A stretch of DNA of 40,510 nt, from NCBI GenBank assembly GCA_005879975.1, contig VBIL01000032.1:1-40510 (forward strand), in the 5' to 3' direction. The stretch is from Chloroflexota bacterium (GTDB taxonomy: Bacteria; Chloroflexota; Limnocylindria; P2-11E). Below the pieces are notes generated by a model. That model saw only the letters and a list, made by a program, of their open reading frames with translations. It did no database searches and was not told the DNA's origin. A program made the translations under genes and the position numbers. Below, piece by piece: positions 6,884 to 39,872 of the stretch; within the stretch, counting starts at the first letter, position 1; each line of letters starts with the position of its first letter.

Positions 6884-8602
6884 ATGGCGGCCACGACCGT
6901 CGGGCGCCGCGCTGGGATGCGCATCCCGGCCTGGCGCGCGGAGATCGTGGTCGCCGGCGGCGCCGCTCTCTTCCTCGCGTATCTCACGGTCGTGCCCCTC
7001 GCGATGCTCCTTCTCGGCGCCGTGTCCGCGTCGGGGAGCGCGCTCGATTTCCAGTTCACGACCCGCTACCTGGAGCGCGTCGTCACCGATCAAGCCTCGC
7101 TCGAGCTACTCGCCAATTCGCTTATCTACGCGGGCGGCGCAGCGGCCCTCGCGTTCGCCCTCGGAACTGCTGCCGCATGGGCGGTGGAGCGGACGAACAT
7201 CCCTGCGCGGAGCCTCTGGTACGGCCTCGCCCTCGTTCCACTGATCGTGCCCGGGATCGTCCATACCGTTGCCTGGCTCTTCCTGCTGAGCCCGGAGATC
7301 GGCTGGATCAACGCCCCGCTCAAGACGTTCTTCGGCTTCTCGCTCTCGGTCTACAGCCTCCCTGGGATGATCTGGATCGAGGGTCTGCACACCGCCCCGC
7401 TCGCGTTTGTCCTCATGAGTGCGGCGTTCCGCGCGATGGACCCGAGCCTCGAGGAGGCCGCGGCGGCGAGCCGGGCCGACGCGTGGAAGACGTTCCGGCG
7501 CGTGACCCTTCCGCTCCTTCTCCCAAGTGTCGCGTCGGTGCTGCTCATCCTGTTCGTGCGAGCGCTCGAGGGATTCGAGGTCCCGGCGATCATCGGCGTG
7601 CCGGGGCGGATCTTCGTCTACACCTCCCGAATCTATCTCTCGCTGAAGCTCTACCCGCCGAGCTTCGGGCTTGCCGCGGCATACGGCCTCGTGCTTCTCG
7701 CCATATCCATCGTCGGTCTCGTCCTCCACCGGCGCGCGACCCGCCACGCCGAGCGGTACGCGACCGTCACGGGAAAGGGCTACCGGCCGCGGCGCCTGCA
7801 GCTCGGTCGGTTTCGATACGTCGCGCTCGGCGCGCTAGGGCTCTACGCGTTTCTCGCGGTCGTTCTGCCGTTCCTGGTCCTTATCTACGCGAGCCTCGTC
7901 CGCGTGTATTCGGTCCCCTCGCTCGAGTCGCTCCGCGAGCTCACGCTCTCGAACTACTCCTTCATCCTCGAGGACGAGCTGACGAGGACCGCGGTCTTCA
8001 ACAGCCTGATCCTCGGCCTCGCCTCGGCGACCGTCGTCGTCGCGGTCACCGCCGTGATCGCGTGGATCACGGTCCGCACGCGGCTTCCCGGGCGCGGCGC
8101 GCTGGACTTCCTCGCATTCGTTCCGATCACGATCCCGGGGATCGTCCTAGGGATCAGCCTTATCTGGGTGTACTTCACGATCCCGATCCGGATCTACGGA
8201 ACGCTCTGGATCCTGCTCGTCGCGTACGTGACGCGGTACCTTCCGTACGGGATCCGCGGCACGACCTCGGCGCTCGTGCAGATCCATCGCGAGCTCGAGG
8301 AGGCGGCCGGCGCGGCCGGCGCGCGCTGGTGGGCAACGTTCCGCTACATCCTCATCCCACTGCTCCGGCCCGCGCTCGTGGGCGTGTGGATCTACGTGTT
8401 CATCATCTCGCTGCGCGAGCTCGGCGCCGGTGTGCTTCTTTACTCGAGCCAGAGCGTCGTCCTGGCGGTACGCATCTTCGACCTCCGCGACTCCGGCAAC
8501 TACACATCGATCGCGGCGCTTTCAGTCTTCCTCATCATCGTGCTCGTGACGCTCGTCTCCGTGCTCCAGCGCATCGGTGGGCGCACGATCCGCGAAGCGT
8601 GA
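6884..8602 (+). CDS. ABC transporter permease, two-module FbpB-like
   Basis: A 572-aa permease with two fused binding-protein-dependent transport modules, as in FbpB/AfuB. Each half has about six helices. The two EAA loops are visible as EEAAAASRADAWKTFRRVTL (about residues 190-210) and EEAAGAAGARWWATFRYILI (about 470-490). It forms the membrane channel for the binding protein encoded 10 bases upstream. Its TGA overlaps the GTG start of the ATPase gene in a GTGA junction (8599-8602), so production of channel and motor is coupled. The start at ATG 6884 follows directly on the preceding gene; no other in-frame start fits better. Confidence 0.9.
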   Translation: MAATTVGRRAGMRIPAWRAEIVVAGGAALFLAYLTVVPLAMLLLGAVSASGSALDFQFTTRYLERVVTDQASLELLANSLIYAGGAAALAFALGTAAAWAVERTNIPARSLWYGLALVPLIVPGIVHTVAWLFLLSPEIGWINAPLKTFFGFSLSVYSLPGMIWIEGLHTAPLAFVLMSAAFRAMDPSLEEAAAASRADAWKTFRRVTLPLLLPSVASVLLILFVRALEGFEVPAIIGVPGRIFVYTSRIYLSLKLYPPSFGLAAAYGLVLLAISIVGLVLHRRATRHAERYATVTGKGYRPRRLQLGRFRYVALGALGLYAFLAVVLPFLVLIYASLVRVYSVPSLESLRELTLSNYSFILEDELTRTAVFNSLILGLASATVVVAVTAVIAWITVRTRLPGRGALDFLAFVPITIPGIVLGISLIWVYFTIPIRIYGTLWILLVAYVTRYLPYGIRGTTSALVQIHRELEEAAGAAGARWWATFRYILIPLLRPALVGVWIYVFIISLRELGAGVLLYSSQSVVLAVRIFDLRDSGNYTSIAALSVFLIIVLVTLVSVLQRIGGRTIREA

Positions 8603-9723
8603 CCACACTCCGGGTCGAGTCGCTTCGGAAGACCTTCACGGCGCAGCGAGGCGCCGTACGCGCGGTCGAAGATGTCTCGTTCACGGTCGAGGATGCGCGT
8701 TTCTTCACGCTGCTCGGTCCTTCGGGTTGCGGCAAGACGACGACCCTTCGCTGCATCGCCGGACTTGAGCGCCCCGAGGCCGGCACGATCCGGCTCGACG
8801 ACGATGTGCTCTCCGGGGACGGCCGCTTCGTCCCGACCCACGCGCGCGATATCGGAATGGTCTTCCAGTCTTACGCGATCTGGCCGCACATGACCGTGTT
8901 CGAGAACGTCGCGTTCCCGCTCCGCGTCAGCGAGCACCCTCCATCGCGGGCGGAGACCCGCCGCTTGGTCGCGGAAGCGCTCGTGCTCGTCGGGCTCGAG
9001 GGCCTCGAGGAACGCCCCGCGCCGCAGCTTTCCGGCGGCCAGCAGCAGCGGCTCGCGCTCGCGCGCGCGCTCGTCCGCAAGCCCAAGCTGCTGCTGCTGG
9101 ACGAGCCGCTCTCGAATCTCGACGCGAAACTGCGGCAGCGCATGCGCATCGAGCTGCGCGAGCTGCAGCGGCGACTTGGCATCACGACGGTCTATGTCAC
9201 CCACGATCAGGGCGAGGCGCTCTTCCTGTCCCATCGGGTCGCGGTGATGCAGAACGGCCGCATCGTCCAGGAAGGCCGGCCGCGCGATCTTTACGCGTCT
9301 CCCGCGTCGGCGTTCGTGGCGGACTTCGTCGGGGATGCGACGTTCCTGCCGGGAGAGGTCGTCGAAGGCGGTGTGCGCGCGCTCGGGGGCATCGTGAGAT
9401 GCGCGCTGAGCGAAGCGCTCACCCCGGGGGCGAAAGCGCTGCTCGTGATGCGCCCTGAGCGGGTCCTGGTCCGGAGCGCCCCGGCGGGACTGGTGAATGA
9501 ATTCGCCGGCACGCTCCGCGTCGCGGCGTTCCTCGGCGACCACCTCGACTGCATCGTCGATGTGGTCGGCACTGAGCTTCGCGCCCGGGCGCACCCCACG
9601 GCGGAGCTCCGCCGCGAGCAGCGCGTGTGGGTCGAGCTTCCACCGGAGCACTGCCTCGCCATCCCCGACGATGGATGGCGGCCGCGGGCGCTCGCGCGTA
9701 CTTTTGACGACGACGAGACCTAG
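8599..9723 (+). CDS. ABC transporter ATP-binding protein, FbpC/PotA-like
   Basis: A 374-aa ATPase. Walker A is GPSGCGKTTT (residues 40-49), the Q-loop is VFQSYAIWPHMTV, the signature is LSGGQQQRLALARAL, Walker B is LLLLDEPLSNLD and the switch His is in YVTHDQGEALF. The last 120 residues form a TOBE-type domain seen in iron, spermidine and sugar importers. GTG 8599 lies in the GTGA overlap with the permease stop. A much longer in-frame open stretch runs back to 7177, but it is only the shadow of the permease gene. The protein energises the Fe3+-type importer. The TAG stop is followed 13 bases later by the flavoprotein gene, so transporter and enzyme genes probably share a transcript. Confidence 0.92.
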   Translation: MTTLRVESLRKTFTAQRGAVRAVEDVSFTVEDARFFTLLGPSGCGKTTTLRCIAGLERPEAGTIRLDDDVLSGDGRFVPTHARDIGMVFQSYAIWPHMTVFENVAFPLRVSEHPPSRAETRRLVAEALVLVGLEGLEERPAPQLSGGQQQRLALARALVRKPKLLLLDEPLSNLDAKLRQRMRIELRELQRRLGITTVYVTHDQGEALFLSHRVAVMQNGRIVQEGRPRDLYASPASAFVADFVGDATFLPGEVVEGGVRALGGIVRCALSEALTPGAKALLVMRPERVLVRSAPAGLVNEFAGTLRVAAFLGDHLDCIVDVVGTELRARAHPTAELRREQRVWVELPPEHCLAIPDDGWRPRALARTFDDDET

Positions 9724-12793: not shown

Positions 12794-13822
12794 ATGCGCA
12801 GGTTCAGAGGCGCGCTCGTTCCGGTCACGGTCCTATCGGTGATCTTCGCGGCGTGCGGCGCCGCGACGCCGGCCCCCAGTCCATCGCCCTCCTCGGGCGC
12901 GACACTCGCGCCCGAGCTCGTCAAGATCAAATCCTCGTACGGCAACGTGACGCCGGCGAACCTCGCACCCTTCTTCGCGAAGGAGATGGGCATTTTCGCG
13001 AAGCACGGCCTGGACGTCGACCTCGTACTTATCGACGGTGGCGCACCGTCGGCGGCCGCGCTCATCTCTGGACAGATCCAGTTCGGGAACTTCGGTGGGA
13101 CCGAAACGATGAGCGGAGTCGCCGCCGGCTCCGACATGGTCGCGGTCTCGCTCTTCGTTCCCGTGACGCCCTGGCAGCTCCTCGCGAAATCCGACTACAA
13201 GACGCCTGAGGACCTACGCGGCAAGGTGGTGGGGGTCGCGTCCAAGGGCGGTTCGAGTGAGGTCGCGGCGGACCTTTCGCTTCAGCGGCTCAAGCTCGAC
13301 CCCAACAAGGACGTGACCAAACAGGCCCTCGGATCGGTCGCGAACCTCACAGCGGCGATGATCGGCGGGGCCGTCTACGCCGGGCCCGGGCATCCGCCGG
13401 ACACGGTGCTGCTCCTCAAGAACGGCTTCAAGGTGATCGTCGACCTCGCAGCCGAGAAGATCCCGGCCACCGACAACTGCACGGTCGTGCGTCGCTCTTA
13501 TTTGCAGACGAATCGCCAGACGGTGCAGGCGTATATCGACGCCGAGATCGAAGCCATCGCCGCCGCCAAGAAGGACAAGCCTGGAACGATCAAGGTCATG
13601 AGCAAGCTCCTGAAGATCGAAGACCAGGACGCCCTCGGCCAGGCATATGACTTTTACGTTGGCCAGATCATGCCGACGTATCCGCACCTCGACGTCGCGG
13701 CATTCAACTACACCAGGGACGCGCTCGCCGCCACAAATCCGAACGTCAAAACCTTGGACGTCACGAAGGCGATCGACGATTCGTTCGTCGCCGATGCGGA
13801 GAAGCGCGGGGTCGGTAAATAG
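12794..13822 (+). CDS. NitT/TauT-type substrate-binding lipoprotein
   Basis: A 342-aa binding protein. The signal peptide ends at lipobox IFAAC (Cys21), with a Pro/Ser linker after it. The mature part (KIKSSYGNVTPANLAPFFAKEM, written here in part: ANLAPFFAKEMGIF; GHPPDTVLLLKNGF) is typical of SsuA/TauA/NMT1-like proteins that bind sulfonates, pyrimidines or aromatic acids. ATG 12794 follows GGAG; upstream in-frame ATG 12749 lies inside the operator and encodes a poor leader. No permease or ATPase gene lies beside it; the leftward NitT/TauT pair at 3996-5725 could serve it. Its TAG overlaps the presumed ATA start of the thiamine-diphosphate enzyme (ATAG at 13819-13822), so the two are coupled. 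Confidence 0.88.
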   Translation: MRRFRGALVPVTVLSVIFAACGAATPAPSPSPSSGATLAPELVKIKSSYGNVTPANLAPFFAKEMGIFAKHGLDVDLVLIDGGAPSAAALISGQIQFGNFGGTETMSGVAAGSDMVAVSLFVPVTPWQLLAKSDYKTPEDLRGKVVGVASKGGSSEVAADLSLQRLKLDPNKDVTKQALGSVANLTAAMIGGAVYAGPGHPPDTVLLLKNGFKVIVDLAAEKIPATDNCTVVRRSYLQTNRQTVQAYIDAEIEAIAAAKKDKPGTIKVMSKLLKIEDQDALGQAYDFYVGQIMPTYPHLDVAAFNYTRDALAATNPNVKTLDVTKAIDDSFVADAEKRGVGK

Positions 13823-15456
13823 CGGAGCAGCGGTACGGGTCGGACGTCATCGTCGACCTGCTCCGGGCGTTCGGGATCGAATACGTCGCCCTGAACCCCG
13901 GAGCGTCGTACCGGGGTCTTCACGACTCGCTCGTCAACTACGGCGCCAACAAGCCCGAGATCATCCTCTGCACTCATGAAGAGATCGCGGTCTCCATCGC
14001 ACACGGGTACGCGAAGGCGACGGGCCGGCCGATGGCCGCCGCGGTGCATGACGTGGTCGGTCTCCTCCACGCGACGATGACCATCTACTACGCGCACGTG
14101 GACCGCGCGCCCGTGCTGGTGTTGGGCGCGACGGGACCGGTCGATCGGAACAAACGACGTCCTTACATCGACTGGATCCACACCGCGCAAGTGAACGGCA
14201 ACGCCGTGCGCGACTACACGAAGTGGGACGACCAGCCCGCGACCGTGGCCGACTTCCCGGCGTCCTTCGCGCGCGCCTACCGTATGGCGACCACGGAGCC
14301 GTGCGGCCCGGTCTACCTCTGCTACGACGCGGGACTGCAGGAGGAGAAGCTTGCCCGGCCGATCGACGTGGCCGAGGTTGCCGCGGCCGCACGGCCCAGC
14401 GCGGCGCAGGCCGATCCTGCCGCGATCACGAGGGCCGCTGACCTCATGGCGCGAGCGGAGCGGCCCGTCATCATCGCCGAGTTCACCGGACGACATCCGG
14501 ACGCGGTCGGCGACCTCGTCGCGCTGTTCGTCCTCGCGCTCGACGTCGGCGACCTCTCGCGGTCGCTGAACGAGCTCGACCGATTGACGAACGAGAAGCG
14601 CTCGCGCATTCCGGCAGGGACGCCGATCGTCGACATCGGTCTCTCTGAGCTGCGACAGAGCAAGTGGGCCGAGGACCTCGGCCAGTTCCAACCCGTGGCT
14701 CTTTCGATCGTCGCGGACACGCGGCTCGCGATCCCCGTGCTTCGCGCGGCGGTCCGCGAGCGCGCCGGGGGACGCGATCGATCGGCGCGCTGCGCCGAGC
14801 TGCAGCGAAAGCACGACGAGATCCGCGCACGGTGGGAGCGCGATGCTCGGGAGGACTGGGACGCGTCTCCGCTCACGGCGCCGCGCCTCGCCTCCGAGAT
14901 CTGGTCGGTGATCAAGGGCGAGGACTGGATCCTGACGTCGAACACGCTCGAGGACTGGGCGCTGCGTCTGTGGGACATCGACGGCCCGCGGCGTCATCCG
15001 GGCCGCTCGTTCGGGACGGCGACGCAGATCGGAACCTCACTCGGCGTTGGCCTGGCGTATCGCGGCACGGACCGCCTCGTCGTCGACATTCAGCCCGACG
15101 GTGATCTCCTGTACGACCCGGGCGCGCTCTGGACCGCCGCGCACCACCGCATCCCTCTGCTGGTCGTCATGTACAACAACCGGGCTTACTACAACGACTG
15201 GGAGCATCAGCTCCGGGTCGCGCAGCATCGCGGCACGCCGAAGGAGAACGCGCGCATCGGTCAGGAGATCGACGACCCGGCGCCCGACTTCGCGATGCTC
15301 GCGCGTTCGTTCGGCTGGCACGCCGAGGGTCCGATCGCCGATCCCGCGAAGGTACGTCCGGCTCTCGAGCGCGCGCTCGAGGTCGTTCGCAGAGAGAGGC
15401 GACCCGCGCTCGTCGACACGATCGTCCGCCACCGGCAAGAGAAGCGTTTTCGCTAG
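13819..15456 (+). CDS. Thiamine-diphosphate-dependent enzyme (acetolactate synthase/benzoylformate decarboxylase fold); no canonical start codon
   Basis: About 545 aa with three TPP-enzyme domains. The N-terminal pyrimidine-binding domain includes ALNPGASYRGLHDSL and the activating Glu in THEEIAVSIAHGYAKATGRP. The C-terminal domain has the TPP/Mg motif starting at PDGDLLYDPG and ending at MYNNRAYYNDWEH (GDG...NN type). The only in-frame ATG is 14032, which would delete most of the first domain including the Glu. Between the in-frame TAA at 13816 and 14032 there is no ATG, GTG or TTG. I therefore extend it to ATA 13819, which forms a 4-nt overlap (ATAG) with the preceding stop. Start and length are inferred. 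It probably cleaves or makes a C-C bond in a 2-oxo acid or acyl-CoA; the substrate is unknown. Two transporter binding proteins flank it. Confidence 0.82.
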   Translation: MAEQRYGSDVIVDLLRAFGIEYVALNPGASYRGLHDSLVNYGANKPEIILCTHEEIAVSIAHGYAKATGRPMAAAVHDVVGLLHATMTIYYAHVDRAPVLVLGATGPVDRNKRRPYIDWIHTAQVNGNAVRDYTKWDDQPATVADFPASFARAYRMATTEPCGPVYLCYDAGLQEEKLARPIDVAEVAAAARPSAAQADPAAITRAADLMARAERPVIIAEFTGRHPDAVGDLVALFVLALDVGDLSRSLNELDRLTNEKRSRIPAGTPIVDIGLSELRQSKWAEDLGQFQPVALSIVADTRLAIPVLRAAVRERAGGRDRSARCAELQRKHDEIRARWERDAREDWDASPLTAPRLASEIWSVIKGEDWILTSNTLEDWALRLWDIDGPRRHPGRSFGTATQIGTSLGVGLAYRGTDRLVVDIQPDGDLLYDPGALWTAAHHRIPLLVVMYNNRAYYNDWEHQLRVAQHRGTPKENARIGQEIDDPAPDFAMLARSFGWHAEGPIADPAKVRPALERALEVVRRERRPALVDTIVRHRQEKRFR

Positions 15457-17226: not shown

Positions 17227-17873
17227 ATGGGCTCCTGGGCCGTCCGGGGCGTGATGGCAGCGTTCGCCATCTTTCTCGTCATCGCAACCGTCCCCCGCTC
17301 GAATCTGACGCCGGCGCCGACGGCCACGCCTTCGCTGATTGCCGCCGCGAGCGAGGCGCCGATCGCCGCGAAAGTTGCGGACGCCTGCTCGTCGGTGTTC
17401 GTCCCGGACCGATGCGCGACCCGCGAGCGCCCGCGTGCCGCCCTGAGCTGCTCGAGCTCGGGCAGCCGATCTTCGTCCGCCAGTACCCCGCGACTACGGG
17501 CAAATGGCTCCTCCCAGTGCGCTACCAGGACCAAACGCTGGTGACGGTCTTCGTGTCGAGCGGCGCCGATGGAATGGGCACCGTCGGCGGAGGTCGCGGC
17601 GGCGGGATCACGATCCCGAGCGAGGCCGAGGCGCGAGCCGCCGGAGGAACGACGGACGATCCGATCAAAGACGCGGAGCTTGTTCTAGGCAACGCCAGCT
17701 GCGGAAGGGATCTGGTGATGTGGAGGCTGGTCCGGCGGAGCGGAACGACCGTCTACCTCGTCCCCGAATTCCCCGGCGCCGCGCCGCCGGGCGCCCTCAT
17801 GACGGACCGCGAGGTCTGGTTCAGCACATCGGGACGGCCGACCGCGAACGCGAAGCTCGCCGCGGCCTGCTAG
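17227..17873 (+). pseudogene. Membrane-anchored protein gene with an apparent frameshift
   Basis: The N-terminal part reads in one frame: MGSWAVRGVMAAFAIFLVIA, a signal or membrane anchor, then a Pro/Thr/Ala linker and VADACSSVFVPDRCATRERP. The remainder reads in another frame: ELLELGQPIFVRQYPATTGK, RYQDQTLVTVFVSSGADGMG and a Gly-rich loop, to TAG at 17873. The switch falls near 17410-17450 and equals the loss of one base. Both parts have strongly G/C-rich third positions, and each other frame there looks like noise. Either a recent frameshift (a true pseudogene) or a sequencing or assembly error is likely. The domain after the shift is not recognised. No typical terminator lies between this gene and the convergent molybdenum-hydroxylase gene 4 bases on. 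Confidence 0.6.
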
Positions 17874-17877
17874 TCGA

Positions 17878-20034
17878 TCACTTCGGCAGCTCGGCCCAGA
17901 TCTTCTCGGCGGTCACCGGCAGGCTCATAACCCGCGCGCCGCAGGCATCCTGGACGGCGTTCGCGACGGCAGCGCCGACCGCGGGATTGGCGAGCTCGCC
18001 GACCGACTTCGCGCCGAAAGGCCCGGGTCCCGGATGGTCGGTGATCAGCTCGATCCGTAGTGGCGGCGCGTCGGCGATCGTCGGGAGCTTGTAGTCGCCG
18101 AGGTTCGCCGTCACGACACGGCCGTCCTCAACGCGAAGCTCTTCCATGACGGCCTGACCGAGGCCGAAGATGAACCCTCCCTCGAGTTGCCCGCGCAGCG
18201 CGACCGGATTGATGACCTTGCCGACATCGGCAACGAGCGTGGCGTCGTCGATCTTCAGCGAGCCCGTTTCGCGGTCGATGGTTACCCGTAGGGCGTAGGC
18301 GTACGTCGAAGCCTCGTGCGTCTCCTGCGCCGCTTCGCCCGTAACCTCGATCTCGCTGGCATCGTCGATCGAGCGCCCGAGCTCGGCGAGCTTCGCGTTG
18401 AGCTTTCGCGCCGCGTCGAGCGCGGCGCTCCCCTGGACAGGCGTCACGCGACTACCGCCCACCCCCGGATCGCTGAGCACGGCGTCGGTCGTGCCACGGC
18501 TTACGGCGACGCGATCGAGCGGGATGCTCAGCTCGGCCGCGACTATTCGCTGGAAGAGCGTGTGCGCGCCGCCGCCCTGGTCGGACACGCCCGTGCGGAG
18601 CTCGACGCGTCCGCCGGCGAGCGTCCGCAGAACCATCGAGGCGCGGCCGCGCCCGACGTGCCTGACCCCGAGCGCGACGCCCCAGCCCCACCAGTTCACC
18701 TGGTTAGGCCTCGCCAGCGAGGGTCCATAGCGGGATGCCGTGCGCAGCCGGGCAAGCAGCGCAGGGCCGTCGGTACCGTGCCACGGCTTTCCGGTGACGT
18801 CGACGTCCCCGTGTCGCACGATGTTGCGCTCGCGGAACTCGAGCGGATCGATCGCGAGGTCGCGCGCGATGAGATCGATATGCGATTCCGCGGCGAATGC
18901 GTTCTGGGGCTGCCCCGGCGCGCGCGCATGCCCGGCGGGGACCTGGTTGGTGTACACGGTCGTCGCCTCCACACGCGCGGCGGGCACGCGGTACCCCGCG
19001 AGCGTGAGCATCGCGTCGCCGGGCATCAGCGTGATCACGGGCTTGCCGGCCGCGTACGCGCCGCCGTCGAACAGGACGCGCGAGGTATGCGCGAGGATCC
19101 GACCTTCCGCGTCGACGCCGGTGCGCAGCGTGATCGTCGCCGCGTGTCTGGTGTTGGTCGCCTGGAGGTCGTCGGCGTAGCGCGTAAGCGCACGGACCGG
19201 ACGTCCGGTCGCGCGGGCGAGGTGATAGAGGACGAACTCGTCGATCGAAAGACCCTTGCCGCCGAAGTCGCCGCCGATGTGCCCCGCGTCGACGACGATC
19301 CGCGGCTCGGGAACGCCGAGCGCGACGGACATGTGCTGCCGCAGCGCGAAGGGCGCCTTGTTGGTCGTGACCACGCGCACGGTCTCGCCGTCGAGCCAGA
19401 CAAGGGTCGCCCGCGGCTCGATGTACGCCTGGTGCGTCCGTGGCAGCGTGAACGTGTGCTCGTACACCTTGTGCGACGTGCGGAACCCGGCTTCTACATC
19501 GCCGTGCTCATGAAGGGCCTGTCCCTGGACGTTGGGATGCGATCGCTGCGCGCGCGTGCCGCCGAGGAACGCGTAGTTCGCGGCGTCGGGGTGCAGGACC
19601 GGCGCGCCCGCCGCAAGCGCGGCGTCCGCATCGAGTACCGCGGGAAGCTCCTCATACTCCACCTCGACCAGCCGAGCAGCCTCATCGGCGATCGCGGCGG
19701 TGTCGGCGGCGATCGCCGCCACGCGATCGCCGATGAAGAGCACGCGATCCCAGCAGAGGATCGGCCAGTCCTGAAGCCTGCGCCCCAAGCGGCCGGGCTT
19801 CGTGTCGGCGCCGGTGATCACGGCGCGAACGCCCGGAAGCGCCCGCGCGGCCGAGACGTCGATCGAGACGATGCGCGCGTGCGCGTATGGGCTCGTCACG
19901 TACGCCGCCTGCAGCATGCCGGGCATGACGACATCGGCGGCATAGCGGGCCGCCCCGGTCACCTTGTCGCGGCCTTCGACCCGGTACTCAGGCTGGTCCA
20001 GGATCGAGGCGGAGCGCTCGGCGACACCGGTCAC
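17878..20034 (-). CDS. Molybdenum hydroxylase large (molybdopterin-binding) subunit, xanthine dehydrogenase family
   Basis: A 718-aa catalytic subunit. The order is an N-terminal substrate and dimer domain (PEYRVEGRDKVTGAARYAAD), GGDFGGKG of the cofactor pocket, ARAPGQPQ at the position of the CO dehydrogenase active-site loop, and near the C-terminus FGAKSVGEL with the catalytic Glu. It lacks the AYRCSFR loop of CO dehydrogenase, so it is not CoxL. Hydroxylation or dehydrogenation of an aromatic or heterocyclic (possibly CoA-bound) substrate is more likely. The start is GTG 20034, in a GTGA overlap with the CoxG-like gene; the frame is open to 20064. It is the last of seven coupled genes in the aromatic operon. 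Confidence 0.9.
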   Translation of the reverse strand: MTGVAERSASILDQPEYRVEGRDKVTGAARYAADVVMPGMLQAAYVTSPYAHARIVSIDVSAARALPGVRAVITGADTKPGRLGRRLQDWPILCWDRVLFIGDRVAAIAADTAAIADEAARLVEVEYEELPAVLDADAALAAGAPVLHPDAANYAFLGGTRAQRSHPNVQGQALHEHGDVEAGFRTSHKVYEHTFTLPRTHQAYIEPRATLVWLDGETVRVVTTNKAPFALRQHMSVALGVPEPRIVVDAGHIGGDFGGKGLSIDEFVLYHLARATGRPVRALTRYADDLQATNTRHAATITLRTGVDAEGRILAHTSRVLFDGGAYAAGKPVITLMPGDAMLTLAGYRVPAARVEATTVYTNQVPAGHARAPGQPQNAFAAESHIDLIARDLAIDPLEFRERNIVRHGDVDVTGKPWHGTDGPALLARLRTASRYGPSLARPNQVNWWGWGVALGVRHVGRGRASMVLRTLAGGRVELRTGVSDQGGGAHTLFQRIVAAELSIPLDRVAVSRGTTDAVLSDPGVGGSRVTPVQGSAALDAARKLNAKLAELGRSIDDASEIEVTGEAAQETHEASTYAYALRVTIDRETGSLKIDDATLVADVGKVINPVALRGQLEGGFIFGLGQAVMEELRVEDGRVVTANLGDYKLPTIADAPPLRIELITDHPGPGPFGAKSVGELANPAVGAAVANAVQDACGARVMSLPVTAEKIWAELPK

Positions 20035-21328: not shown

Positions 21329-21813
21329 AAGCGATTCGGAGGGCTCTGCCCCCCGACCCCCGAGGCTTTCTGGATCGCGCGCTCGATCCCGTAGTAGCCG
21401 GTGCAGCGGCACAGGTTCCCCATCATCCAGGTGCGGATCGCTTCGTGGTCCGGCCGTGGCTGCTCGCTGAGCAGAGCGGTCGCGGCAATGAGCTGTCCCG
21501 GCGTGCAGATCCCGCACTGGAAGCCACCTTCGCGGATGAACGCGTCCTGCAGTGGCGTGAGGTCATTTTTCGCGAGACCTTCGACCGTGGTGATGCGCCG
21601 TCCGTCGGCGAAGACCGCGGGCAAAAGACAGGCGGACAGGAGCTCGCCGTCGACGAGAACGCTGCACGCTCCGCAAACGCCGACGGCACAGCCGAGCTTC
21701 GTACCAGTGGCGCCGCAATCGTCGCGGATGACCTCGATGAGCAACCGATCCGCCGCCACTTCGAGCTCGTGTTTTGTGCCGTTCAGGGTGAACGACAGGC
21801 GGTGCGTGCTCAT
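21325..21813 (-). CDS. Molybdenum hydroxylase [2Fe-2S] subunit (CoxS-like)
   Basis: A 162-aa electron-transfer subunit with a plant-type ferredoxin fold. Cysteines lie in CGATGTKLGC, VCGAC and LLSAC, and a second cluster is held by CGICTPGQ and CRCTG in the all-helical C-terminal domain. ATG 21813 is in an ATGA overlap with the ligase stop, and TGA at 21325-21327 overlaps the GTG of the FAD subunit. The last residues (GGQSPPNRL) are encoded by a GC-rich palindrome at 21338-21354 and may be an inserted tail. Confidence 0.93.
   Translation of the reverse strand: MSTHRLSFTLNGTKHELEVAADRLLIEVIRDDCGATGTKLGCAVGVCGACSVLVDGELLSACLLPAVFADGRRITTVEGLAKNDLTPLQDAFIREGGFQCGICTPGQLIAATALLSEQPRPDHEAIRTWMMGNLCRCTGYYGIERAIQKASGVGGQSPPNRL
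21338..21354. repeat. GC-rich palindrome inside the end of the CoxS-like gene
   Basis: GGAGGGC (21338-21344) pairs with GCCCCCC (21348-21354, one G-T pair) around TCT. It codes the Gly/Pro-rich tail of the Fe-S subunit and resembles the palindromic element at 180-215. A dispersed repeat that landed at a gene end is possible; two examples do not prove it. Confidence 0.35.
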
Positions 21814-23339
21814 CTCGATCGCAGCTTGAAGCGCTGGATCTTGCCGGTGGACGTCTTGGGTAGCTCCGGGACGAACTCGATCCATCGAGGGTACTTGTAT
21901 GGCGCGAGGCGGTCTTTCACGAACGCGCGCAGCTCGCCGGCGAGGGTTTGGCTCGCGGCGCCGTTCTTCAGCACGACGTAGGCGCTGGGCTTGATCAAAC
22001 CCTCGGCGTCTTCGCGCCCCACGACCGCACATTCGAGGACGGCCGCGTGCTCGAGCAGAGCGCTCTCCACCTCGAGCGGCGAGACCCAGATGCCGCCGAC
22101 CTTGAGCAGATCGTCGCTGCGCCCGTGATTCGTGTGGTAGCCGTCTTCGCTCACGGAGTAGCGGTCTCCCGTGAAGACCCACTCGCCACGGAACGTGCGT
22201 TTGGTCGCATCGCGCTTGTTCCAGTAGCCGAGCGCGGTCGACGGTCCGCGGACCATCAGGTCGCCGACCGCGTCCGGCGGCAGCGGCGCGCCGGTCTCGC
22301 CGACCACTCGCGACTCGTACCCCGGAATCAGCTCTCCGGACGTGCCCGGCCGGACCCGGCCGGCGAAGTTCGAGATGGCGATGTACCCGATCTCGGTGGA
22401 ACCGATCCCGTCCAGGATCTCGAGACCGAAGCGGGCCCTCCAGCGCTCGAAGAGCGGCCGCGGCAGCGCCTCTCCCGCGGAGATGCAGAGCCGGACCGAC
22501 GAGAGGTCGTACGCGGCGCCCTGTTCCGCGGCCGCGAGAAGCGCTGCATACGAGGTCGGCACGCCGTAGAAGACGGTCGGCCGTTCGGCGGCGATCGCCG
22601 CGAAGATCGCGCGCGGCTCCGGGCGCCCGGCGAACAGGATCGACGTCGCGCCGTGCCGCAACGGGATAACGAGCGAGTTGTTCAAGCCGTACGAGAAGAA
22701 GAGCTTGGCGACGCTGAACACGCGGTCGTCGGAAGATAGCCCGACCACGTGCCGACCGTGCAGATCGGCCGGGGTCATCGCGCTCGCATGCAGGTGGATC
22801 ACGGCCCTCGGTGCACCGGTCGTGCCGCTCGAGTACTGCCAGAAGCACATGTCATCGGGACTCGTCGGCTCGGCGGCGAGCACGCTCGAGGCAGCGGCCA
22901 GGATTTCCCGCAGCGCCGCCCGGCCTTTCGGAGGGTCGCCCGCGACGGTGATGTGCGCCAGATGCGGAAGCTCCTTGGTGAGGGGCGCGATCTGCGCGAG
23001 GAGCGCCTGGTCCACGACGGCGACGCGGGCCCGGCAGTCGGCCAGGAGGTACGCATAGTCGTGGGCGGTGAGGAGCGTCGAGAGGGTGACGGGGACGGCG
23101 CCGATCTTGATCGCGCCAAGGAACACCGCGACGAAGTCTGGCGAGTCCGCCAGGAGGAGCGCGATGCGCTGCTCAGGCTCGAGGCCGAGTGAGCGCAGCG
23201 CGTTGCCGGCGCGGTTGACGGATCGCGCGACGTCCTTGTACGTGAGGGTCGCGCCCTCAAAGCGGATTGCGGGACGGTCAGCGCGACCGGCATCCAAATG
23301 CGAGTCGACGAGCGCGCTCGCGAGGTTGAACGTCGTTAC
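21810..23339 (-). CDS. Benzoate-CoA ligase-like acyl-CoA synthetase; start codon GTA inferred
   Basis: A 509-aa ANL-superfamily ligase that adenylates a carboxylic acid and forms its CoA thioester. Motifs seen are YSSGTTGAPRAV (P-loop, residues 169-180), DGIGSTEIGYIAISN (benzoate-ligase-like), GRSDDLLKVGGIWVSP (hinge region) and LPKTSTGKIQR with the catalytic Lys near the C-terminus. The family start (M)TTFNLASAL corresponds to GTA 23339, which with the preceding TAA forms a 4-nt overlap GTAA; every later junction of this operon is also a 4-nt overlap. No ATG, GTG or TTG exists until TTG 23297. It sits between two diiron proteins and the molybdenum hydroxylase, so it makes the CoA substrate for one or both. 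The acid is unknown. Confidence 0.9.
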   Translation of the reverse strand, partial: VTTFNLASALVDSHLDAGRADRPAIRFEGATLTYKDVARSVNRAGNALRSLGLEPEQRIALLLADSPDFVAVFLGAIKIGAVPVTLSTLLTAHDYAYLLADCRARVAVVDQALLAQIAPLTKELPHLAHITVAGDPPKGRAALREILAAASSVLAAEPTSPDDMCFWQYSSGTTGAPRAVIHLHASAMTPADLHGRHVVGLSSDDRVFSVAKLFFSYGLNNSLVIPLRHGATSILFAGRPEPRAIFAAIAAERPTVFYGVPTSYAALLAAAEQGAAYDLSSVRLCISAGEALPRPLFERWRARFGLEILDGIGSTEIGYIAISNFAGRVRPGTSGELIPGYESRVVGETGAPLPPDAVGDLMVRGPSTALGYWNKRDATKRTFRGEWVFTGDRYSVSEDGYHTNHGRSDDLLKVGGIWVSPLEVESALLEHAAVLECAVVGREDAEGLIKPSAYVVLKNGAASQTLAGELRAFVKDRLAPYKYPRWIEFVPELPKTSTGKIQRFKLRSR

Positions 23340-38502: not shown

Positions 38503-39872
38503 GCGGCCTCCACGATGTAGGTCGGCACCACGCTGCCTGCACCAGCCGTCACGTTCAGCAGCGCACTCGAGCTGACGCGCGCGAGCGTGCCCGAGACCCT
38601 GCCCCAGAAGAGGTACGGGTCGTGGTCGATGGATAGATCGAGGAAGTGCATGCGGTCCAGGATCACCGGGAACGGGTAGCGCGGCACATCGACACGCTCC
38701 TGCGCGACGTACGAGCTCTCGAGCGCGGCGAGGAACGACTGCTCCCAGTCGTGTTGATCGACCGTCCAGCCGAGGACGACGCCCTTTCCGCCGTACTCGT
38801 CGTTGGGCTTCAGGACGAGGCGCTCGCGGTGGCCGACCACGAACTCGGCGAGATCGACGACCTTCCCGCGGTAGGTGGTGTGCCCTTCACGGATTTTTCG
38901 GGTCCAGGGAATGTGCTTCGCGATCGCGGCGCGTTGCGGCGCGGTGTACAGGGCCTCGTAGCGATCATCAGAGAGGAGCGCGAGGCTCATCTTCTTGTGC
39001 AGGAGCTTCGCGCGGAAGCTGTTGACCACGGTGACCGCGCCCTCGAGATACGCCCGGACCAGCGGTCGCGCGACCAAATCTTTCGCGAGGAGCTCGCTCG
39101 TGAGGACCCGTCGGTATACGAGGTCGACGGGCCGTCCTGACGCGCGCAAGGTGCCGCGCGAATACCTGAGGTCCTCCGGAGCGCAGATGACGGTCGCGAT
39201 GCCACGCGACTCGAAGAAACGCTGGAACATCTCGAACTCGGTGAGCGTGGGCAGGCCGCGCCAGTCCACGATTGCGATCGCCGGCCCCTTGCTGGTGCGA
39301 CCGCGATGGGCGCGCAACATGGCCGTGAGCTGCCGTCCCCGTGTCGGCACGACGCGCATGCGGAAACGCTCGCGGAACCGCTTCACGACCGGGAGGGATG
39401 CGAAGACCTCCGCGAGCTCGTCGTTATAGGCCATGCCCGCCGGGGACTCCGCGTTGTACTCCACGAACCTGATCACACCGTCCTCGCCGATGAAGCCGTC
39501 GAGGCGCGAGGACGGCGAGGCGGCCGCGAAGCCTGGATCGGCGAGGGCGAGGGCCTCTTCGCGAGGATCCAGATCGAGCTCTCGCCGAAGATCTTCGTTC
39601 TTGAGGAGTGCCTGTTCGAGGCGGCCGAGAGCCGCATAGATCGTCTCGGCGGCGGCGTTCACCTCCGCGTACTGCCACTCGCTGATGAGATTCGGTCGAA
39701 GCGAGACGCAGAGCGGCCGCTTGCCGAATACCAGGCGGCGTTCGCGCTGACCCTCGGTGAGCATCGCCGCGCTCTCCTGCGCGAGTACGCCGTCCTCGAG
39801 CAGCTCGTGGTAGGCGACCAGCGGCGCCAGCGCCGCGCCTCGCTTATTCGCTACCGCACGTGCCGCCACCAC
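38499..39872 (-). CDS. Circularly permuted ATP-grasp ligase
   Basis: A 457-aa protein in which ATP-grasp motifs occur in swapped order. EYNAE with SPAG (about residues 138-146), normally C-terminal, precedes LVLKPNDEYGGKGVV (about 352-366), normally N-terminal; this is the hallmark of the permuted family. Such enzymes make amide bonds in secondary peptides. The start is GTG 39872, with GGGGGAG 6 bases upstream; a frame to 39953 would be shadow. It overlaps the end of the upstream ATP-grasp gene by 22 bases, and its stop overlaps the GCS2 start, so the three are coupled. Confidence 0.88.
   Translation of the reverse strand: MVAARAVANKRGAALAPLVAYHELLEDGVLAQESAAMLTEGQRERRLVFGKRPLCVSLRPNLISEWQYAEVNAAAETIYAALGRLEQALLKNEDLRRELDLDPREEALALADPGFAAASPSSRLDGFIGEDGVIRFVEYNAESPAGMAYNDELAEVFASLPVVKRFRERFRMRVVPTRGRQLTAMLRAHRGRTSKGPAIAIVDWRGLPTLTEFEMFQRFFESRGIATVICAPEDLRYSRGTLRASGRPVDLVYRRVLTSELLAKDLVARPLVRAYLEGAVTVVNSFRAKLLHKKMSLALLSDDRYEALYTAPQRAAIAKHIPWTRKIREGHTTYRGKVVDLAEFVVGHRERLVLKPNDEYGGKGVVLGWTVDQHDWEQSFLAALESSYVAQERVDVPRYPFPVILDRMHFLDLSIDHDPYLFWGRVSGTLARVSSSALLNVTAGAGSVVPTYIVEAA

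Follow-up and report, generated by a model that had tools for sequence, protein, structure and literature searches.

ATA as the probable start codon of a TPP-dependent enzyme gene at an ATAG stop/start overlap in a soil Chloroflexota lineage

The 40,510-nucleotide stretch of Chloroflexota DNA analysed here (the window, contig VBIL01000032.1) carries a gene for a TPP-dependent enzyme that appears to begin at an ATA codon, and comparison of sequences indicates that ATA is very probably a working start codon in the lineage concerned. The host belongs to a little-known group of soil Chloroflexota in which several genes appear to be started by ATA, often where this codon lies over the stop codon of the gene upstream. 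The enzyme gene (13819..15456, + strand) encodes 545 amino acids and is acetolactate synthase/benzoylformate decarboxylase-like, as judged from Pfam matches, alignment to the benzoylformate decarboxylase 4q9d and dN/dS. Conservation of the start across several species, purifying selection on the part of the gene that lacks any NTG codon and the presence of other ATA-started genes all support placing its start at ATA.

The arrangement of the two genes at this junction is compact. The upstream gene (12794..13822, + strand) encodes an ABC-transporter substrate-binding lipoprotein of the NMT1/SsuA type, with a signal/lipobox-like N-terminus and matches to Pfam NMT1 and NCBIfam SsuA_fam, and it ends in TAG. 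The enzyme gene lies in frame -1 relative to it, such that the putative start ATA (13819-13821) and the stop TAG (13820-13822) are contained within a single ATAG (13819..13822, + strand), a 4-nt overlap that an earlier note on this DNA had described and that the sequence confirms. Both genes of the pair are coding and share their stop and start nucleotides, with ATA over TAG in place of the NTG over TGA that defines -4 nt overlap pairs. A TAA in the frame of the enzyme gene (13816..13818, + strand) abuts the ATA, so that no start further upstream is possible in the window frame, and between this TAA and an ATG at 14032..14034 (+ strand) there is indeed no ATG, GTG or TTG, as the same note had stated. 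This ATG, at codon index 71, is the first canonical start and is unlikely to be the true one. Six nucleotides 5' of the ATA lies a weak to moderate Shine-Dalgarno-like GGGGT (13808..13812, + strand), for which the calculated anti-SD duplex, assuming a standard anti-SD tail, amounts to -6.2 kcal/mol against a median of -2.9 at random in-gene sites. On the same assumption 26% of random in-gene sites reach -5 kcal/mol, and the pairing before the ATA, which is moderate, thus beats that of most random sites yet is unexceptional.

Comparison with relatives bears out the ATA as the start. Orthologues within the same genus have ATA (G004, G008 and G010) or GTA (G007) at the corresponding position, in every instance overlapping the TAG of the same adjoining binding-protein gene. 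The open reading frame 5' of the start codon holds no NTG at all in the window genome (G000), G004, G007 and G008, and in G010 the nearest upstream NTG is 216 codons away. In-frame stops lie close upstream in G000, G004 and G007; in G008 and G010 the frame is open upstream, and there the stretch is strongly non-coding in the enzyme frame and coding in that of the binding protein. The distance from the TAG to a conserved RYGSD block varies among the orthologues solely by multiples of three. Three species of the ATA-bearing genus have another arrangement, in which the enzyme gene starts with NTG. Separately, the enzyme gene of G012 (L037) also has no NTG near its start and there shows the ATA of AAATAA.

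If the protein did not begin at ATA, where might it begin? A shorter product from an internal start, either the ATG at 14032 or a CTG or ATC at around codons 10-25, would fit with the conservation of an ATG at codon 71/72 and with a CTG that three species have at codon 13 or 14. However, purifying selection is evident across the entire NTG-less part: each of the six pairwise comparisons of G000, G004, G007 and G008 gives a dN/dS of 0.03-0.14 over the first 72 codons, and this stretch is therefore translated and selected as protein. The coding score 5' of the first NTG, from a codon-usage scan, is +18.8, with the next-best gene of the window at about +2. As the earlier note had proposed, conserved N-terminal sequence lies 5' of the ATG at 14032: the N-terminal TPP (PYR) domain PF02776 matches residues 7-112 with 80 bits (cut-off 26.8), and the TPP-activating catalytic Glu, located by alignment to 4q9d, is residue 54 (codon 13978..13980, + strand), such that a start at 14032 would drop most of the domain. 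Nor do all five species share any single near-cognate codon downstream of ATA and before the RYGSD block. An internal start is for these reasons quite improbable.

The remainder of the enzyme raises the question of whether this copy is intact. The C-terminal TPP (PP) domain PF02775 is matched with 61.7 bits (cut-off 21.9), and the N- and C-terminal TPP domains together with the conserved Glu are what the window enzyme has in common with benzoylformate decarboxylase/acetolactate-synthase-like enzymes (PF02776, PF02775), from which it differs in its odd start codon and in missing part of the central domain. About 35 central-domain residues have been lost in-frame at residue ~236 (window ~14526-14530) relative to the full-length copies of G004, G007 and G008, which reflects either a real deletion or an assembly collapse, and given this loss the window copy may be damaged. 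It could accordingly be argued that the gene is decaying in the window species, its start having simply been lost and its message not properly translated, and a Pfam profile search finds no match in it to the central domain PF00205 (TPP_enzyme_M), whereas the full-length relative L033 does match this domain, with 27.7 bits and thus below the cut-off of 30.4. Against decay, the full-length relatives share the ATA/GTA start. Furthermore, the window gene has no other lesion, and pairs that include G000 give dN/dS values just as low as pairs of the other species, which makes decay very unlikely as the reason for the missing NTG.

A positive control, showing ATA as a start in its own right, comes from a gene with a quite different setting. 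The infC gene is noted for non-canonical starts, such as AUU in Escherichia coli. In this family its start is ATA, within an open reading frame devoid of NTG, in 12 of the 12 genomes retrieved, including that of the window (L121 9833-9851, + strand), where a GAGGT precedes the ATA by six bases and no upstream gene overlaps it. The lineage's translation machinery must therefore accept ATA. In other families of the class infC apparently starts with ATA, ATC or CTG; the infC loci compared, inside the family and beyond it, were L121 and L295-L310.

Further ATA starts are found at ATAG overlaps in housekeeping and other genes of the window genome. One is rsmI (L120:1079-1795, - strand; TIGR00096), where residue 1, encoded by ATA, aligns with Met1 of RsmI in 5hw4. 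Across species the codon at this position is ATA in seven, six of them of the window genus and one of another genus, and ATG, GTG or TTG in 15, in all cases immediately 5' of GKLYL or a variant of it; in G002 the ATA follows a good Shine-Dalgarno sequence and is not at a 4-nt overlap. A second is a PolA-like 5'-3' exonuclease (L190:2130-3011, - strand), whose start-position codon is ATA in ten species, eight from the same genus and two from the next, and GTA in one. A third is lysA (L370:12142-13446, - strand; TIGR01048), with ATA in G000, where the open reading frame has no upstream NTG, and in its sister G004; other members have a GTG one codon off the ATA position, and the ATA itself is preceded by almost no SD-like site. 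The enzyme gene, rsmI, the exonuclease, lysA and infC thus share one pattern: an AUA at the homologous start position of several species, with no NTG that could take its place. The nucleotide after ATA is G or A in every case, and the second codon starts with G in the enzyme gene, rsmI and the exonuclease. The exonuclease genes of G019 and G012 (L251, L259) have no NTG near the start, and no ATA of AAATAA either.

A scan of junctions between co-directional gene pairs, covering 842 kb of the window genome with the window included and hence a partial census, separates ATA from its near relatives. Seven of ten junctions with an ATA overlap have no NTG within 12 codons, compared with 8 of 41 with CTA, GTA or TTA (Fisher p = 0.004; 0.002-0.016 at other window sizes), a contrast indicating that it is ATA itself, not any NTA, that replaces the start. 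A selB-like gene (L187), a permease gene (L144) and a gene at 39854 on the minus strand of the window were set aside as ambiguous, each with an ATG or GTG 5-6 codons upstream of the NTA.

The companion case within the window is weaker. A gene of the benzoate-CoA-ligase family (21810..23339, - strand), matching TIGR02262 from residue 3, has a GTA (23339-23337) over the TAA of its upstream gene, and this geometry, which had been put forward alongside the ATA as a parallel, is as described. The use of GTA as a start is ambiguous: a TTG lies 14 codons 3' of the GTA as a possible start, the relatives G007 and G008 have CTA (CTAG) at the overlap, and in G001 and G004 a GTG lies within an inserted segment that bears a perfect hairpin (L154, L156). 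GTA and CTA starts are thus possible, on evidence weaker than that for the ATA cases.

Neither the genetic code nor the initiator tRNA appears to have been altered to suit AUA. An altered code in which AUA specifies Met was rejected, since orthologues have I, V or L, and not M, at the positions of internal ATA codons, and the code is accordingly standard. An altered anticodon arm of the initiator tRNA was likewise rejected: the canonical arm, GGGCTCATAACCC, is present in 24 of 29 genomes, within tRNAs at the loci examined. That arm was not found in the window assembly, probably as a result of the incompleteness of the assembly.

The other genes also bear on a quite different explanation, namely that ribosomes nearing the end of the binding-protein gene undergo a programmed -1 frameshift and so make a fusion protein for which no start codon is needed. 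The -1 frame of the enzyme gene relative to the binding protein is what such an event would use. Against it, there is no slippery heptamer, and GGT AAA TAG would slip onto the TAA; the upstream gene encodes a lipoprotein that is exported; and in related genera the binding-protein and enzyme genes are split by about 25 nt, with the latter starting at ATG or GTG. In addition, infC has its ATA with no overlapping upstream partner, and the genes upstream of rsmI and lysA are unrelated, all of which renders a frameshift highly improbable. A sequencing or assembly error concealing a true ATG or GTG, which the earlier note had allowed for and which might be entertained since the window derives from one metagenome assembly (G000; 2.66 Mb, 210 contigs, 83% complete), is refuted for practical purposes and has next to no probability left, as separate assemblies of four other species carry the same ATA (or GTA), an ATG at 13819 would leave the upstream gene without its TAG, and the same pattern is seen in rsmI, the exonuclease and lysA.

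The account that best joins these observations, and one in which we have good confidence, is that ATA 13819 is the true start of the enzyme gene, that either the terminating ribosome or a new one initiates there with fMet-tRNA, and that AUA belongs, as a minor member, to the normal start codons of the family. We infer the initiation at AUA, its coupling, its efficiency and its origin in one step. In this scheme the ribosome completing the binding-protein gene would halt at the TAG with the overlapping AUA beside the P site, and the same ribosome or a fresh 30S subunit would then initiate at the AUA, aided by the GGGGT inside the upstream gene. The ordinary fMet-tRNA would be used, with A tolerated at the third codon position. 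The family would employ AUA both in infC, where there is no overlap, and at the ATAG junctions of rsmI, the exonuclease, lysA and the enzyme gene. Such a junction could arise in one step, with a G-to-A change turning ATGG into ATAG and so giving a new upstream TAG stop and a weaker downstream start. The output of the enzyme would be expected to be low relative to that of the binding protein, by analogy with Staphylococcus aureus.

In S. aureus, infC, ccpN, citZ and cvfC1 have AUA/AUU start codons, and AUA starts there were measured at 10-30% of AUG activity (PMC13009471). AUA is thus a poor start codon where its activity was measured, a fact that counts against the ATA reading. So do the moderate strength of the SD-like site and its near absence at lysA, the NTG arrangement in three species of the genus, the possible damage to the window copy, and the origin of every genome compared from a metagenome assembly. 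The Chloroflexota genes resemble these AUA genes in having a conserved, presumably weak AUA start, and infC of the family likewise begins with ATA. They differ in that the S. aureus sites depend on extended Shine-Dalgarno pairing, whereas several of the Chloroflexota sites, rsmI and lysA included, lie at a 4-nt TAG overlap, and in that ATA here recurs across different lineages. The second point of comparison is with -4 nt termination-reinitiation overlaps (Huber et al., PMC6728339; PMC10666635; reviewed in PMC12548453), which are similarly co-directional, have a 4-nt stop/start overlap and often an intragenic SD. It is from this analogy and the overlap geometry that initiation at ATAG is probably coupled to termination. 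The known class, however, consists of NTG over TGA, whereas the Chloroflexota case consists of ATA, perhaps GTA or CTA, over TAG or TAA.

Coupling need not be what permits the codon. The earlier note had suggested that coupled re-initiation tolerates the odd start, a proposal that is not established, since infC, with no overlap, and rsmI of G002, with its SD and no 4-nt overlap, both use ATA; coupling is thus not required for ATA use, and the idea that ATA functions solely at overlaps was rejected on the same two genes. A broader version, in which NTA (mostly ATA, but also GTA and CTA) over TAG or TAA provides the regular start of dozens of family genes, with post-termination ribosomes choosing mainly by position, would amount to a second, uncounted class of -4 overlap and, taken with the AUA of infC, might bring such genes under IF3-dependent control; it is conceivable but doubtful.

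Neither AUA starts nor 4-nt overlaps are new in themselves; what looks new is their recurrent combination as ATAG, housekeeping genes included, of which a search of open-access text found no description. Overlap surveys presume start codons ending in G (PMC10666635), so that ATAG goes uncounted and is missed as an overlap, and since gene finders and start surveys take only ATG, GTG and TTG, conserved enzymes of this lineage would be truncated or called partial. If AUA starts at ATAG hold, a single G-to-A change would set an upstream stop together with a weaker, coupled downstream start, and the lineage would provide a natural setting in which to study the extent to which terminating ribosomes relax start-codon choice. 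The ATA start shared by infC makes a link to IF3 directly testable.

Two minor features may be recorded. CTG starts are apparent at CTGA overlaps with no nearby ATG, GTG or TTG, at L120 (-) 8234-9112, L129 (-) 17858-18556, L145 (-) 98-1504, L178 (-) 1127-1930 and L113 from 4180 (+). Stop codons in 648 kb of the window genome comprise 208 TAG, 294 TGA and 59 TAA, an unusually high frequency of TAG given the high GC content.
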